Shown here: positions 5,069-30,598 of the stretch, in pieces | Numbering within the stretch: position 1 is the stretch's first letter | Layout: every line of letters starts with the position of its first letter | Origin: Gemmatimonadota bacterium | GTDB taxonomy: Bacteria; Gemmatimonadota; Gemmatimonadetes; Gemmatimonadales; GWC2-71-9 | Reading direction: 5' to 3' | NCBI GenBank assembly: GCA_016209985.1 | Contig: JACQVB010000052.1 | Coordinates: 1-34,971 of the forward strand | DNA: 34,971 bases | Translations under genes and position numbers: made by a program | The notes under the pieces: model-generated | The model's database searches: none | Told to the model about the DNA's origin: nothing | Seen by the model: the letters and a program-made list of their open reading frames with translations, nothing else

Positions 5069-5073
5069 ACCCC

Positions 5074-5155
5074 TCGCGAGCGCGGAGCTTGGAGTTCGGA
5101 GCGCGGAGCTAAAAGGGACTTAACTCCGCGCTCCGCGTTCCGCGCTCCGCACTCG
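5074..5155. repeat. Inverted 7-bp repeat array A (CTCCGCG/CGCGGAG)
   Basis: The left arm, 5074-5108, is five heptamers ending in GAG (TCGCGAG, CGCGGAG, CTTGGAG, TTCGGAG, CGCGGAG). The right arm, 5124-5155, is CTCCGCG, CTCCGCG, TTCCGCG, CTCCGCA, CTCG. The arms are reverse complements with a few mismatches around a 15-base loop, giving a long GC-rich hairpin after the pirin gene. A weak accgg/ccggt hairpin with a short T tract follows at 5189-5207. Confidence 0.9.
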
Positions 5156-5684: not shown

Positions 5685-6970
5685 CACTGGCCGTCTCGAC
5701 GGCCGCCTTGCAAGGACACGGCGCTGAGGTCGCCACGGTTGTCATCGCCCTTGCCGTGATGCTGGGCGCCGCCAAGCTCGGCGGCGACCTGGCAGTGCGG
5801 GTGGGTCAGCCGGCGGTCCTCGGAGAGCTGGTGGCCGGCGTCGCCCTGGGCAACGCGTTCCTGATCGGAATTCCCTGGTTCCGTTCCTTCACCACCAATC
5901 CGTCCATCGACGTTCTCGCCCAGCTCGGCGTGCTCATTCTGCTGTTCGAGGTCGGGCTGGAGTCCACGGTACGCGACATGATGCGCGTGGGGATTTCCTC
6001 CCTTTTGGTCGCGGTCCTCGGCGTCATCACGCCGTTCGCGCTGGGATGGATTGTGGGCGCGCTGATCCTCCCCGGGCACAGTCCCTATGCTCATGCGTTC
6101 CTCGGCGCGACGCTGACCGCGACCAGTGTGGGGATTACCGCTCGCGTGCTGGGCGACCTCGGCAAGTCCAAGTCGCCCGAGGCGCGCATTATCCTGGGTG
6201 CGGCCGTGATCGACGATATCCTCGGCCTCATCATTCTGGCGATCGTTACCGGCGCGGTGCAGGGAGCCGACCGGGGCGAGTCGCTGGACTACGGAAGCAT
6301 CGGGGCGATCGTGGGCAAGGCGGTGGTCTTTCTCTTCGGCGCCCTTGCACTCGGCCTGGTGGTCTCGCCGCGTCTCTTCCACTTTACCTCCAAGCTCCGC
6401 GGCCGGGGCGTCCTGCTAGTTACCGCGTTGGTGTTCTGCTTCCTGCTCTCGTATCTCGCGTCGATCATCGGTCTGGCGCTGATCGTCGGCGCCTACGCCG
6501 CCGGGCTGATCCTCGAGGACGTACACTGGAAGGACTTCACGGAACGGGGCGAGCACCAGCTCGAGGAGTTGATTCATCCGATCTCGACGGTGCTGGTGCC
6601 CGTCTTCTTCGTCCTGATGGGCATGCGGGTCGAGCTGGCGGCGTTCGCCAAGATGGAAGTGCTGGGGCTCGCGGCGCTGCTGACGCTGGTGGCGGTGATC
6701 GGCAAACAGGCCTGCTCTTTGGGAGCCATCGGACACGGGCTCGACCGGCTTTCCATCGGCATCGGGATGATCCCGCGTGGGGAGGTCGGGCTGATTTTCG
6801 CGGGCATTGGAACCACCCTCATGGTGGGTGGAGAGCGGATCGTGGACGAAGGCGTATTTTCCGCTATCGTGATCATGGTGATCGTGACCACGATGGCCAC
6901 TCCGCCGGCGCTCAAGTGGAGCCTGGGGCGGCGGCGGGAGCGAGGCAACGCGGGAGGTCGCAACGGATGA
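5681..6970 (+). CDS. Cation:proton antiporter, CPA2/NapA-Kef type
   Basis: 429 residues with about 12-13 hydrophobic helices and no C-terminal RCK/TrkA domain. The paired acidic motif VIDDILGLI (Asp178-Asp179) in the middle helix matches the Asp-Asp of electrogenic NapA/NhaA-type exchangers. TATSVGITARVL is the unwound-helix partner motif, and IGMIPRGEVGLIF near the C-terminus is typical of the family. It should exchange Na+ or K+ for H+ across the inner membrane. The start is GTG, see the overlapping leader ORF. The stop overlaps the cytochrome gene (ATGA), so it may be cotranscribed with the molybdoenzyme module. Confidence 0.93.
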   Translation: MTLAVSTAALQGHGAEVATVVIALAVMLGAAKLGGDLAVRVGQPAVLGELVAGVALGNAFLIGIPWFRSFTTNPSIDVLAQLGVLILLFEVGLESTVRDMMRVGISSLLVAVLGVITPFALGWIVGALILPGHSPYAHAFLGATLTATSVGITARVLGDLGKSKSPEARIILGAAVIDDILGLIILAIVTGAVQGADRGESLDYGSIGAIVGKAVVFLFGALALGLVVSPRLFHFTSKLRGRGVLLVTALVFCFLLSYLASIIGLALIVGAYAAGLILEDVHWKDFTERGEHQLEELIHPISTVLVPVFFVLMGMRVELAAFAKMEVLGLAALLTLVAVIGKQACSLGAIGHGLDRLSIGIGMIPRGEVGLIFAGIGTTLMVGGERIVDEGVFSAIVIMVIVTTMATPPALKWSLGRRRERGNAGGRNG

Positions 6971-7629
6971 ACCAGGTGCGCCGGCATCACTGGATCGTGC
7001 GCCTGACCCATTGGTCGGCCTTCGTGTTGATCTTCGCGATGGTGGCGAGCGGGCTGCAGATCTATCGCGCCTACGCGCGATTCGGCCCGCGCGACCACTC
7101 CTATCCCAACTTCCTGGAGAACGCCGATTTCCCGCAATGGTCGCGACTGGGCGGCTGGCTGGCCGGCGGCCTCAACTGGCACTTCTTCTTGATGTGGCCG
7201 CTGATCGGGGTCGGCCTGCTCTATGTGGGCTACCTCCTGGTGAGCGGCGAATGGCGGAAGCTGGTCTTCCGAGCGCGCGACGTGCGGCCGGCCATTTCCA
7301 TGGCCCGCTACTATGCGCGGCTCGACAAGGAGCACCCGCCGCAAGGCAAGCACAACGCGCTCCAGAAGCAGGCATACACCGGCGTCATGCTGCTGGGCAT
7401 TCTTTCCGTAGTGACCGGCTTTGCCATCTGGAAGCCAATTCAGCTTTTCTGGCTTACGGCACTGTTCGGCGGGTATCAGCTTGCCCGCTACTGGCACTTC
7501 TGGGCGGTCTGGCTCTTCGTCAGCTTCGCGATCGTCCACGTGATTCTGGTCTTCACCGCCGACCCAGCTTCGCTCCGGGCGATGATCACCGGGTGGTACC
7601 GGGGGAGGTATACGAATGACACACCCTGA
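6967..7629 (+). CDS. Cytochrome b561 / Ni-Fe hydrogenase-type cytochrome b subunit
   Basis: 220 residues with four main transmembrane helices. Candidate haem ligands are His7/8 and His15 in the first helix (RRHHWIVRLTHWSAF), and the two His of RYWHFWAVWLFVSFAIVHVIL in the last helix. These fit the di-haem b561 fold of quinone-linked membrane anchors. It starts within an ATGA overlap with the antiporter and overlaps the molybdoenzyme start by 14 bases. It is therefore the likely quinol-oxidising electron donor to that enzyme, a role played by YedZ/MsrQ in the enterobacterial system but here filled by a different family. Confidence 0.9.
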   Translation: MNQVRRHHWIVRLTHWSAFVLIFAMVASGLQIYRAYARFGPRDHSYPNFLENADFPQWSRLGGWLAGGLNWHFFLMWPLIGVGLLYVGYLLVSGEWRKLVFRARDVRPAISMARYYARLDKEHPPQGKHNALQKQAYTGVMLLGILSVVTGFAIWKPIQLFWLTALFGGYQLARYWHFWAVWLFVSFAIVHVILVFTADPASLRAMITGWYRGRYTNDTP

Positions 7630-8446
7630 ACGAGGTGTCAGGTGCCAGGTGTCAGGTGTCAGGGATGCGCTGCTCGGCGTTTCGGAAAAGGGAGCTGAGC
7701 CGCGGAGCACCCTGACACCTGACACCTGGTACCTGACACCTGACCCCTGGCACCTGACACCTTCTCGCCGTGCTTTCCTTGCATCCAGCGCGGCTACGGT
7801 GTTGGCCGCCTGCGGCTGGGACGGTGGCCGAGCGCTCAAGCCGGTGATGTACGGTGCCAGCCGGTTCAATGACTGGTTCAGCGAGCGACTCTTCTCGGAA
7901 TCGAAGCTTTCGCCCAAGTTCGACGCGGCGCGCCGCTCGAAGAGCTTCCCCAATTACCACATCAGTGAGATGACGCCGGTGCTGGACGATCCGGCCCAGT
8001 GGCGACTGGAAGTCGGCGGGCTGGTGTCGACCCCGCTGTCCCTTTCGCTGGAGGACATCCACCGGCTGGAGCGGACCAGCTACACGGTCGAGCATCATTG
8101 CGTCGAGGGGTGGTCGGCGGTCGCGTCATGGGCCGGCGTGCCGCTTCGAGCCATCGCGCAAAAGGCGGGAGTAAAGCCCGACGCGCGTTACGTCCGATTC
8201 GATTCGTTCGACGACGAGTACTACAACGGGTGGGATTTGAAGTCGGTCATGCACCCGGAAACGATTCTGGCCTACGCCTTCAACGACCGCGAGCTGATGC
8301 CCGATCATGGAGCGCCGCTTCGTCTCTACGCACCGCACAAACTGGGTTACAAGCTGACGAAATACCTGACCAAGGTAACCTTCACTGCTGATCGTCCCGG
8401 GGGGTATTGGGAAGACCAGGGATATCCGTGGTTTGGAGGAGTATGA
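7616..8446 (+). CDS. Molybdopterin-dependent oxidoreductase, YedY/MsrP-sulfite oxidase family, Tat lipoprotein
   Basis: 276 residues. A Tat motif S-R-R-A-F-L (residues 50-55) is followed by a hydrophobic stretch and a lipobox LAAC (Cys66), so the enzyme is probably exported folded and lipid-anchored. The oxidoreductase molybdopterin domain follows, with the Mo-ligating Cys162 in VEHHCVEGWS and the conserved HGAPLRLYAPHKLGYK region. The family reduces methionine sulfoxide in periplasmic proteins or oxidises sulfite; the substrate here is open. Unusually, residues 5-49 before the Tat motif are encoded by an inverted heptamer repeat array. The start ATG 7616 overlaps the cytochrome gene; no better start lies between the array and the Tat motif. 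Confidence 0.92.
   Translation: MTHPERGVRCQVSGVRDALLGVSEKGAEPRSTLTPDTWYLTPDPWHLTPSRRAFLASSAATVLAACGWDGGRALKPVMYGASRFNDWFSERLFSESKLSPKFDAARRSKSFPNYHISEMTPVLDDPAQWRLEVGGLVSTPLSLSLEDIHRLERTSYTVEHHCVEGWSAVASWAGVPLRAIAQKAGVKPDARYVRFDSFDDEYYNGWDLKSVMHPETILAYAFNDRELMPDHGAPLRLYAPHKLGYKLTKYLTKVTFTADRPGGYWEDQGYPWFGGV
7633..7762. repeat. Inverted 7-bp repeat array B (AGGTGTC/ACCTGAC) inside a coding region
   Basis: The left arm, 7633-7664, is AGGTGTC, AGGTGCC, AGGTGTC, AGGTGTC, AGGG. The right arm, 7710-7762, is CCCTGAC, ACCTGAC, ACCTGGT, ACCTGAC, ACCTGAC, CCCTGGC, ACCTGAC, ACCT. The loop is 45 bases. The whole hairpin lies between the start codon and the Tat signal of the molybdoenzyme gene and stays open in its frame, giving peptides such as CQVSGVR and TPDTWYLTPDPWHLTP. 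Confidence 0.92.
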
Positions 8447-28477: not shown

Positions 28478-28606
28478 GGTGTTAGGTCTTGGGTGTTGGG
28501 TCTTGGGTGTCAGCTACCTGAGTTGCCGATGGTGAAGTGCCATCAGCCCTCGACCTGACTTCTTCCATCCCCAAGACCTAAGACCCAACACCCAATACCC
28601 AACACC
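28478..28606. repeat. Inverted 7-bp repeat array D (GGTGTTG/GGTCTTG)
   Basis: The left arm, 28478-28512, is GGTGTTA, GGTCTTG, GGTGTTG, GGTCTTG, GGTGTCA. The right arm, 28572-28606, is CAAGACC, TAAGACC, CAACACC, CAATACC, CAACACC, the reverse complement with few changes. Five units on each side are separated by a 59-base loop. It fills the gap between the small unknown protein and the PLP enzyme; the right arm ends 18 bases before the ATG. Confidence 0.92.
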
Positions 28607-28624: not shown

Positions 28625-29779
28625 ATGCACAACAGCACCCACCGCCTCGCTACCCGCGCCATCCACGCCGGCGAGCCCGAACCCCGCATCATGGGTTCGG
28701 TTACCGTACCGATTTTCCAGAGTGCCATGTTCGAAACGGCGGGTGGGGAGGGCTATCACGACATCAGGTACATCCGCCTGAACAACACGCCCAACCATCA
28801 GGCGCTGCACGCGAAGCTCGCGGCCATGGAGGGCGCGGAGGCTGGACTGGTTGCCGCGAGCGGCATGGCGGCGATCACGAGTGCGTTACTGGCGGTGTTG
28901 TCGACCGGGGACCATCTGCTCATCCAGGACTCGCTCTACGGCGGGACCCACGATTTCGTGACGCACGACCTGCCGGATTTCGGTATCAGTTACGACTTCA
29001 TCGATGCGGATGACGCCGGGAGCTGGAAGGGCAAGCTCAAGCCGACGACCAGGGCGATCTACGTGGAGGCGATGTCAAACCCGCTGCTTCAGGTGACCGA
29101 TCTGAAGGCCGCCGCCGCCTTTGCCAAGGAGAACGGACTCGTCTCGCTGATCGACAACACGTTCGCCAGTCCGGTGAATTTCCGCCCGGCGGAATGGGGA
29201 TTCGATCTCTCGTTACACAGCTGCACCAAGTATCTGAATGGCCATTCCGACATCGTGGCTGGTGCGGCGATCGGCCGGAAGGACCTGGTCGAGAAGGTCC
29301 GGCACAAGCTGAATCATCTGGGAGGCTCGCTCGACCCGCATGCGTGCTTCCTTCTGGATCGGGGCATCAAGACCTTGGTGGTCAGGATGAAGCACCACAA
29401 CGAGAGCGCGCTCACCGTCGCGCGGTTCCTCGAAGGGCACGCGGCCGTGGCCCGGGTGAATTACCCCGGGCTGGACAGTCACCCGCGGCGCCGGCGCGTG
29501 GAAGAGCTGTTCGACGGGTTCAGCGGGATGCTGAGCTTCGAGGCCAAAGGTGGGCTCAAGGCGGCCGAGCGATTCATCGAACGGGTGACGATCCCGATCA
29601 AGGCCCCGAGCCTCGGCGGGGTGGAGTCCCTCGTCACTCAACCGGCGAGAACCTCCCACTCGGGGATGAACCCGGAAGACCGCAAACTCCTGGGTATCTC
29701 CGACAGTCTGATCCGCGTTTCCGTCGGGCTCGAGGCTACTGAAGATTTGATCGAGGACTTCGAGCAGGCGCTAAAGTGA
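28625..29779 (+). CDS. Cys/Met-metabolism PLP enzyme (cystathionine gamma-lyase/synthase, methionine gamma-lyase family)
   Basis: 384 residues, full length for the family. The PLP-binding lysine is Lys202 in LHSCTKYLNGHSDIVAG. Other family motifs are AASGMAAITSALLA (phosphate binding), QDSLYGGTHD, YVEAMSNPLLQVTDL, SLIDNTFASPV and the C-terminal SLGGVESLVTQPARTSHSGM. It should use pyridoxal phosphate for transsulfuration or sulfur-amino-acid cleavage. The exact reaction is not decidable by eye; YIRLNNTPNH replaces the more usual YxRxxNPT. The stop TGA is inside the first heptamer of array E. Confidence 0.92.
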   Translation: MHNSTHRLATRAIHAGEPEPRIMGSVTVPIFQSAMFETAGGEGYHDIRYIRLNNTPNHQALHAKLAAMEGAEAGLVAASGMAAITSALLAVLSTGDHLLIQDSLYGGTHDFVTHDLPDFGISYDFIDADDAGSWKGKLKPTTRAIYVEAMSNPLLQVTDLKAAAAFAKENGLVSLIDNTFASPVNFRPAEWGFDLSLHSCTKYLNGHSDIVAGAAIGRKDLVEKVRHKLNHLGGSLDPHACFLLDRGIKTLVVRMKHHNESALTVARFLEGHAAVARVNYPGLDSHPRRRRVEELFDGFSGMLSFEAKGGLKAAERFIERVTIPIKAPSLGGVESLVTQPARTSHSGMNPEDRKLLGISDSLIRVSVGLEATEDLIEDFEQALK

Positions 29780-29860
29780 GAAGTAAGAAGTGAGAAGTAA
29801 GAGGTGAGAAGTGAGAAGTACTCCAGGTAACCTCCTTCTCACTTCTCACTTCTCATTCTT
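29775..29860. repeat. Inverted 7-bp repeat array E (AGTGAGA/TTCTCAC)
   Basis: The left arm, 29775-29820, is AGTGAGA, AGTAAGA, AGTGAGA, AGTAAGA, GGTGAGA, AGTGAGA, AGTA. The right arm, about 29836-29860, is TTCTCAC, TTCTCAC, TTCTCAT, TCTT. It sits between convergent genes and provides both stop codons: the TGA at 29777-29779 for the PLP enzyme, and the TGA read on the minus strand at 29846-29848 for the thioesterase, whose last residues KNEK come from the array. It may serve as a shared hairpin terminator. Confidence 0.92.
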
Positions 29861-30450: not shown

Positions 30451-30598
30451 GCCGTCAGCCAACAGCCATCAGCCGTCAGCCGTCAATGAACCATGCTCGC
30501 TTACACGATTGGAGATCGAAGGATAATAGATTGATGCTCACATGAGCGGCACTACTGTTTTCGATACCAATCCCCGATGGCTGACGGCTGATGGCTGA
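30451..30598. repeat. Inverted 7-bp repeat array G (GCCGTCA/TGGCTGA), supplies a start codon
   Basis: The left arm, 30451-30485, is GCCGTCA, GCCAACA, GCCATCA, GCCGTCA, GCCGTCA. The right arm, 30578-30598, is TGGCTGA, CGGCTGA, TGGCTGA. The loop of about 92 bases holds a candidate promoter. The left arm begins 7 bases from the 5' end of tRNA-Ser. The right arm contains the ATG (30591-30593) of the dehydrogenase gene, so its first residues M-A-D are repeat-derived. Confidence 0.9.
30501..30529 (+). promoter_or_regulatory. Candidate promoter for the dehydrogenase gene
   Basis: TTACAC (30501-30506) and TAATAG (30524-30529) are separated by 17 bases and lie in the loop of repeat array G, about 60 bases before the ATG. 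The boxes are imperfect. The same AT-rich spot reads TATTAT on the minus strand and might serve tRNA-Ser instead. Confidence 0.35.

Follow-up and report, generated by a model that had tools for sequence, protein, structure and literature searches.

Inverted heptamer arrays behind stop codons in a Gemmatimonadota genome and an in-frame copy ahead of a Tat motif

The window analysed here is a stretch of 34,971 nucleotides from contig JACQVB010000052.1 of a Gemmatimonadota bacterium (GCA_016209985.1), a MAG of 4.64 Mb in 289 contigs. Within it, two inverted arrays of 7-bp units stand in frame between the start codon and the Tat motif of a putative molybdoenzyme. The first-pass annotation had read this arrangement as phase-variation-like control, in which the loss or gain of units would turn the enzyme on or off. 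The locus therefore raises the question of whether the hairpin is a switch or an insertion that the gene has tolerated. Its features are as follows.

6967 to 7629, forward strand: cytochrome b561-type membrane subunit (Ni_hydr_CYTB; Pfam PF01292, E 7e-29, translation), stop codon TGA at 7627-7629
7601 to 7608, forward strand: Shine-Dalgarno-like GGGGGAGG, 7 nt ahead of ATG 7616
7616 to 8446, forward strand: molybdoenzyme ORF of 276 aa, Oxidored_molyb / sulfite-oxidase fold family, beginning within the end of the cytochrome gene
7633 to 7663, forward strand: left arm, G-rich, AGGTGTC x 4.4, period 7, starting 3 nt after the cytochrome stop
7664 to 7710, forward strand: loop of 47 nt, translated in frame within the leader
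7711 to 7762, forward strand: right arm, C-rich, CCTGACA x 7.4, period 7
7763 to 7780, forward strand: Tat motif S-R-R-A-F-L, adjoining the array; both Arg invariant in an eight-sequence alignment
7802 to 7813, forward strand: lipobox-like L-A-A-C; Cys66 invariant in the alignment

The presence of inverted heptamer arrays in frame between ATG 7616 and the Tat motif was confirmed. The right array was also scored with a period of 21 (2.5 copies, 93%), and the best arm pair of the hairpin comprises 32 nt with 97% complementarity and 45 nt between the arms. As RNA, the hairpin is predicted to fold at -96.9 kcal/mol, whereas shuffled versions averaged -57.8 (z = -9.7) and 0 of 200 matched it; as DNA, the fold has a z of -7.8. 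Both arms are degenerate, the longest perfect run in each being 18 bp or 2.57 units, and the copy numbers are those assembled in the MAG with the exact unit number uncertain. No terminator was called at the hairpin and a T-run is absent behind both arms. As a result, an intrinsic terminator was rejected.

The frame from 7616 to 8446 is open across both arrays and its predicted product begins MTHPERGVRCQVSGVRDALLGVSEKGAEPRSTLTPDTWYLTPDPWHLTP-SRRAFL. A pure CCTGACA array of at least three units presents TGA in every frame. The molybdoenzyme frame is still open because both in-phase positions of the right arm (codons 7727-7729 and 7748-7750) read TGG; TGA is kept in 5/5 out-of-phase units, and the remaining two frames through the right array are closed. 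Across the rest of the genome sample, the A is present in 68% of units, and the chance that both in-phase units are non-A is about 0.10. The two TGG codons are consistent with selection and were dropped as proof of it, given this p value and the fact that any open frame must show TGG. The expectation that most changes in unit number would break the frame held: by computation, the gain or loss of one or two units in either arm ends the product at 22-37 aa, and that of three units keeps it.

Matches to the molybdoenzyme were found in 78 of 81 Gemmatimonadota-related genomes searched, a count that includes distant superfamily members, and 51 loci were drawn from a species-wide collection. Close orthologues begin at the homologous ATG, usually followed by 2 to about 20 residues and then the Arg pair. 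Against the nearest relatives (69% identity), 44 alignment columns are found in the molybdoenzyme alone. The proposal that the hairpin was inserted between a start codon and a Tat signal agrees with these orthologues, which have no insert and reach RR soon after the ATG; they also begin near the Tat motif, as had been suggested for a check, with a few to about 20 residues ahead of RR. The array is in the molybdoenzyme frame ahead of S-R-R-A-F-L as first described, although the insert amounts to about 43 codons and not to the 45 or so residues given. Deleting 129 bp would give MTHPERSRRAFL, which is much like orthologous leaders such as MTDRPLSRRDLL. From orthologues that share no more than about 70% identity, we infer that an insertion of ~43 codons occurred.

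The first-pass annotation had missed that the insert adjoins the stop codon that ends the upstream gene. The cytochrome stop overlaps the molybdoenzyme start as ATGACACACCCTGA here and as ATGACTGA in several orthologues (cases read by eye), an overlap that is common to the orthologues even though they lack the insert. A purine run like GGGGGAGG is also found ahead of the orthologues' ATG. The hairpin begins at +18 relative to ATG 7616 and, folded in isolation as RNA, also base-pairs with part of the Shine-Dalgarno region; ribosomes ending the cytochrome gene would traverse this pairing. Synthesis of the molybdoenzyme probably starts at ATG 7616 and gives the protein an extended n-region, and coupling to the upstream cytochrome gene may aid its translation.

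PF00174 (Oxidored_molyb) matches the molybdoenzyme with an E of 3e-38, and C162 in HHCVEGW, the Cys ligand, is invariant in the alignment. The closest PDB structure is 1xdq (E 3e-17, over 139 residues), which we take to be E. coli YedY. The view that the protein is a periplasmic repair enzyme, MsrP, was not established: the MsrP model scored 98.3 bits with a cut-off of 207, and the SorA, SoxC and SorT models were each below cut-off as well. The MsrQ/YedZ haem partner is not beside the gene, where the neighbor, considering the adjacent gene only, is the cytochrome b561 of PF01292. An MsrPQ identity was rejected since the MsrP cut-off was not reached. Judged by its sequence, the safest name is a putative Tat-exported, sulfite-oxidase-fold molybdoenzyme with a cytochrome b561 partner.

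At the same operon junction, octamer arrays (ACGCCAAG or ACGCTACG) occur in some other genera; they are read as TPRRQDAK-like peptides and lie, where measured, 5-8 nt past the same cytochrome stop. The ACGCCAAG arrays in frame as TPRRQDAK are of near-constant length (L051, 2960-2985; L056, 1439-1461; L070, 2900-2929; L073, 2897-2930). Leaders in the octamer-bearing genera are also almost constant in length, with 15-17 residues ahead of the Arg pair, and are thus unlike a unit-number switch. Since the exact octamer is scarce in these genomes (1-3 perfect sites), dispersal is not claimed for it.

The heptamer hairpin belongs to a class that is dispersed throughout its genome. About 250 period-7 arrays (172 + 77) were found in 1.05 Mb of sequence, and 158 were counted in 524 kb as compared to 1 after shuffling. 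AGGTGTC words are present at more than 60 other sites in the genome. The 17-mer pattern AGGTGYCAGGTGYCAGG has 163 exact matches in the genome; 80 relatives have 0-2 apiece, and the reversed control has 0. The same type of hairpin is built from the heptamers AAGTGAG, GGGAAGA, GGTGCGT, GGAGTGC, AGCCATC and GGGTCTT, and similar hairpins built from other words occur in other genera. The 5' arm is the G-rich arm in 51/54 hairpins of a first contig set and in 15/20 of a holdout. A fold-back origin, with one arm copied from its partner, was rejected because identity between the arms of one hairpin (0.85) is not above that across different hairpins (0.86, p 0.18). Mobilization of a RAYT/IS200 type was also rejected: the genome has a single Y1_Tnp match, on a contig whose first 20 kb are free of period-7 arrays. 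One RVT_1 match was found when a link to reverse transcriptase was considered. Three more hairpins were identified in the window.

28478 to 28606, no strand assigned: further hairpin of this class (heptamers GGTGTTA / TAACACC), 6 nt past a stop
29774 to 29855, no strand assigned: heptamer hairpin (AAGTGAG / CTTCTCA), flanked by two convergent stops
30456 to 30598, no strand assigned: heptamer hairpin (AGCCATC / GGCTGAT), ahead of the gene at 30591

Other observations concern the makeup of the arrays. At 5073-5154 of the window, neighboring CTCGGAG and CTCCGCG heptamer tracts are probably the remains of a hairpin of this class that has decayed. The word CAGTATC lies at most 25 nt past the 3' arm in 7/30 AGG-type hairpins, where about 0.02 would be expected, and never on the 5' side; AGGTGTC hairpins with this 3' flank are located at L093, L096, L098, L101, L103 and L104. 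A CTTTAYGG-like core is common to several AGGTGTC-hairpin loops. Together, the flank and the loop core suggest that members of one subfamily spread as a unit extending beyond the arms. A composite array at L114 (15110-15217) turns from an AAGTGAG type into a GTGCGTG type within one tract, which is a hint of how word families convert into each other. A second genome of the same order (G073; loci L161 and L162) has arrays of different heptamers, GGAGTCA and AGGAACG.

With respect to placement, genes were called with a simple home-made composition-based caller. Since the first contig set had been chosen partly for AGGTGTC matches, a holdout was also run on 526 kb from other contigs, most of which had not been picked for such matches. 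Although 90% of the sequence was called coding, 139/172 arrays are intergenic. The leftover spacer is 40 bp or less at 66% of hairpin junctions in the first set, compared to 3.2% expected under length-proportional targeting; the corresponding values for the holdout are 72% and 1.6%. Gaps to the stop codon fall inside -20 to +10 nt in 44/49 cases and in 20/24 of the holdout, these 20 spanning -17 to +6 nt, and the holdout gaps on the start side are all at least 10 nt. Convergent junctions are enriched (15/62) and divergent junctions are scarce (4/62). A model that gives each stop codon one chance fits the numbers of co-directional and convergent junctions (p 0.64), whereas a model that gives each junction one chance is rejected (p 0.003). 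The hairpin at 7633-7762 obeys the stop rule with a gap of +3 from the cytochrome stop, and it is atypical only in that the next gene starts upstream of that stop. Selection for some function behind stop codons could explain the stop-abutting pattern equally well.

Arrays are also found in frame within other genes. A GGGAAGA hairpin at L114 (12765-12881) lies between the CN_hydrolase (amidase) and NAD_synthase domains of an NAD synthetase, another array separates the MoCF domain of CinA from its KH domain, and a third is inside a membrane protein. N-terminal arrays, MTREEGRGKREECIPVAALLLAAATA and MRSLKKCVVRGAWCVGLLALG, are ahead of or within signal-peptide-like stretches. The NAD synthetase was dropped as proof of an array in an essential gene since the genome has other NAD_synthase matches. 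Given these in-frame arrays, the molybdoenzyme leader may be considered one of several in-frame insertions that have been tolerated.

With a probability of about 0.78, the hairpin is a tolerated insertion of the dispersed, stop-abutting heptamer class and not an on/off switch. It is in the molybdoenzyme frame because the cytochrome stop overlaps the molybdoenzyme start; with that stop within the first codons of the molybdoenzyme, a copy set 3 nt past it would necessarily fall inside the next frame. The insertion would then have survived for three reasons. Its landing site would be the n-region of a Tat signal, a region expected to tolerate extra length. The net length would have kept the frame, as indicated by the return to MTHPERSRRAFL upon removal of 129 bp, and the stops of a pure CCTGACA array would be missing from the frame in use.

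A phase-variable switch, in which slipped-strand loss or gain of 7-bp units toggles the molybdoenzyme, draws on the truncations computed above and on an array near the N-terminus, the usual place of switching repeats. However, the arrays are short, with degenerate units and perfect runs of at most 18 bp (2.57 units), the class is genome-wide and mostly outside genes behind stops, and comparable frame-sensitive arrays lie within NAD synthetase, CinA and others, among which the molybdoenzyme gene does not stand out. For the closest known repeats, which are associated with genes of random classes, phase variation was judged unlikely (PMC4692102). A switch is very improbable here, and phase variation of the molybdoenzyme is best described as unsupported rather than disproved. 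If the true start were after the array, at the GTG 7799 chosen by the composition-based caller, or if the gene were decaying, the hairpin would be simply intergenic. This is hardly plausible: a start at 7799 would drop the RR motif, a sequence scan from the array end to SRRAFL found no ATG, GTG or TTG in frame, and ATG 7616 with its Shine-Dalgarno-like run sits at the start used by orthologues. The RR pair, Cys66 and the catalytic region are also intact and invariant. Least credible is a short-read assembly that misplaced or collapsed the arrays, despite the 289 contigs of the MAG and the many near-identical array families, as the arrays are below typical read length, the locus is internal to its contig with a consistent gene order, and contig ends in the holdout are not enriched in arrays (1 versus 1.4 expected).

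A functional role as an RNA element is unlikely, though compatible with a tolerated insertion. Hairpins abutting stops would act on the mRNA, by stabilizing the upstream transcript, by attenuating or ending transcription, or by making reinitiation less frequent. At this junction the hairpin would set the ratio of cytochrome to molybdoenzyme. The very close placement past stops, the bias toward convergent and away from divergent junctions and the strong predicted RNA fold point in this direction; yet neither arm is followed by a T-run or a called terminator, the arm identities (0.85 versus 0.86) give no sign of selection for exact pairing, and orthologous operons manage without the hairpin. A bolder and doubtful proposal is that an inverted heptamer-array family is actively placed past stops by a mechanism that recognizes gene 3' ends or ribosome-free RNA. 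At overlaps, such a family would rewrite the downstream N-terminus and lead to frame-gated variation of an export signal.

For the gene, the consequence of a tolerated insertion is modest: an enzyme, presumably exported, with a repeat-derived leader. For the genome, a placement that resembles one chance per stop codon makes the origin and spread of bacterial heptamer repeats testable. As a caution, finding 7-bp repeats within a reading frame does not on its own count as evidence for phase variation.

A report of such repeats in Gemmatimonadota was not found in the literature searched; several known systems offer a comparison. A phase-variable contingency locus shares the frame shift upon unit change but not the tract, which is long and near-perfect in such loci and limited to 2.57 perfect units here. 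The STRR heptamers of filamentous cyanobacteria are dispersed tandem heptamers in several words, as are the present arrays; they are not known to occur as paired inverted arrays behind stop codons. REP, BIME and REPIN elements are dispersed intergenic hairpins (PMC8266576, PMC3116915) and resemble the present class in their large number and location, but in the present class the arms consist of tandem heptamers and the loops vary. Unlike REP moved by TnpA-REP (RAYT), there is no RAYT gene flanked by repeats, the sole Y1_Tnp match being the one described above. The TAACTGA repeats of marine Beggiatoaceae are likewise intergenic heptamer arrays in many copies, but they are direct, in a single orientation and just upstream of start codons (PMC4679880).

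The closest likeness is with GGGAATC and GGGGA(C/T)T, heptamer repeats that are dispersed in Xanthomonas and Nostoc (Rehm et al. 2015, PMC4692102). Those repeats are often inverted pairs (70 in Xcc, 75 in Xac) and mostly intergenic, at an average of 28 nt from the upstream ORF and scarce between divergent genes. Their function was not found, and phase variation was thought unlikely because the associated genes are of random classes (PMC4692102, in which Calothrix heptanucleotides are also cited). The Gemmatimonadota arrays share the tandem 7-bp units (at least 2 copies), G-rich on one strand, in many places in the genome, as well as the frequent inverted pairing, the strong intergenic bias, the nearness to the 5' ORF, the scarcity between divergent genes and the random classes of the associated genes. 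They differ in that the main word AGGTGTC has G2 tracts only, and not the GGGANTN or quadruplex-capable G3 form, and in being from a different phylum, with several word families per genome, a tighter position on the stop codon, and in-frame copies in signal peptides and linkers. Thus, the Gemmatimonadota class matches the Xanthomonas and Nostoc repeats in kind, working alike without being the same repeat.
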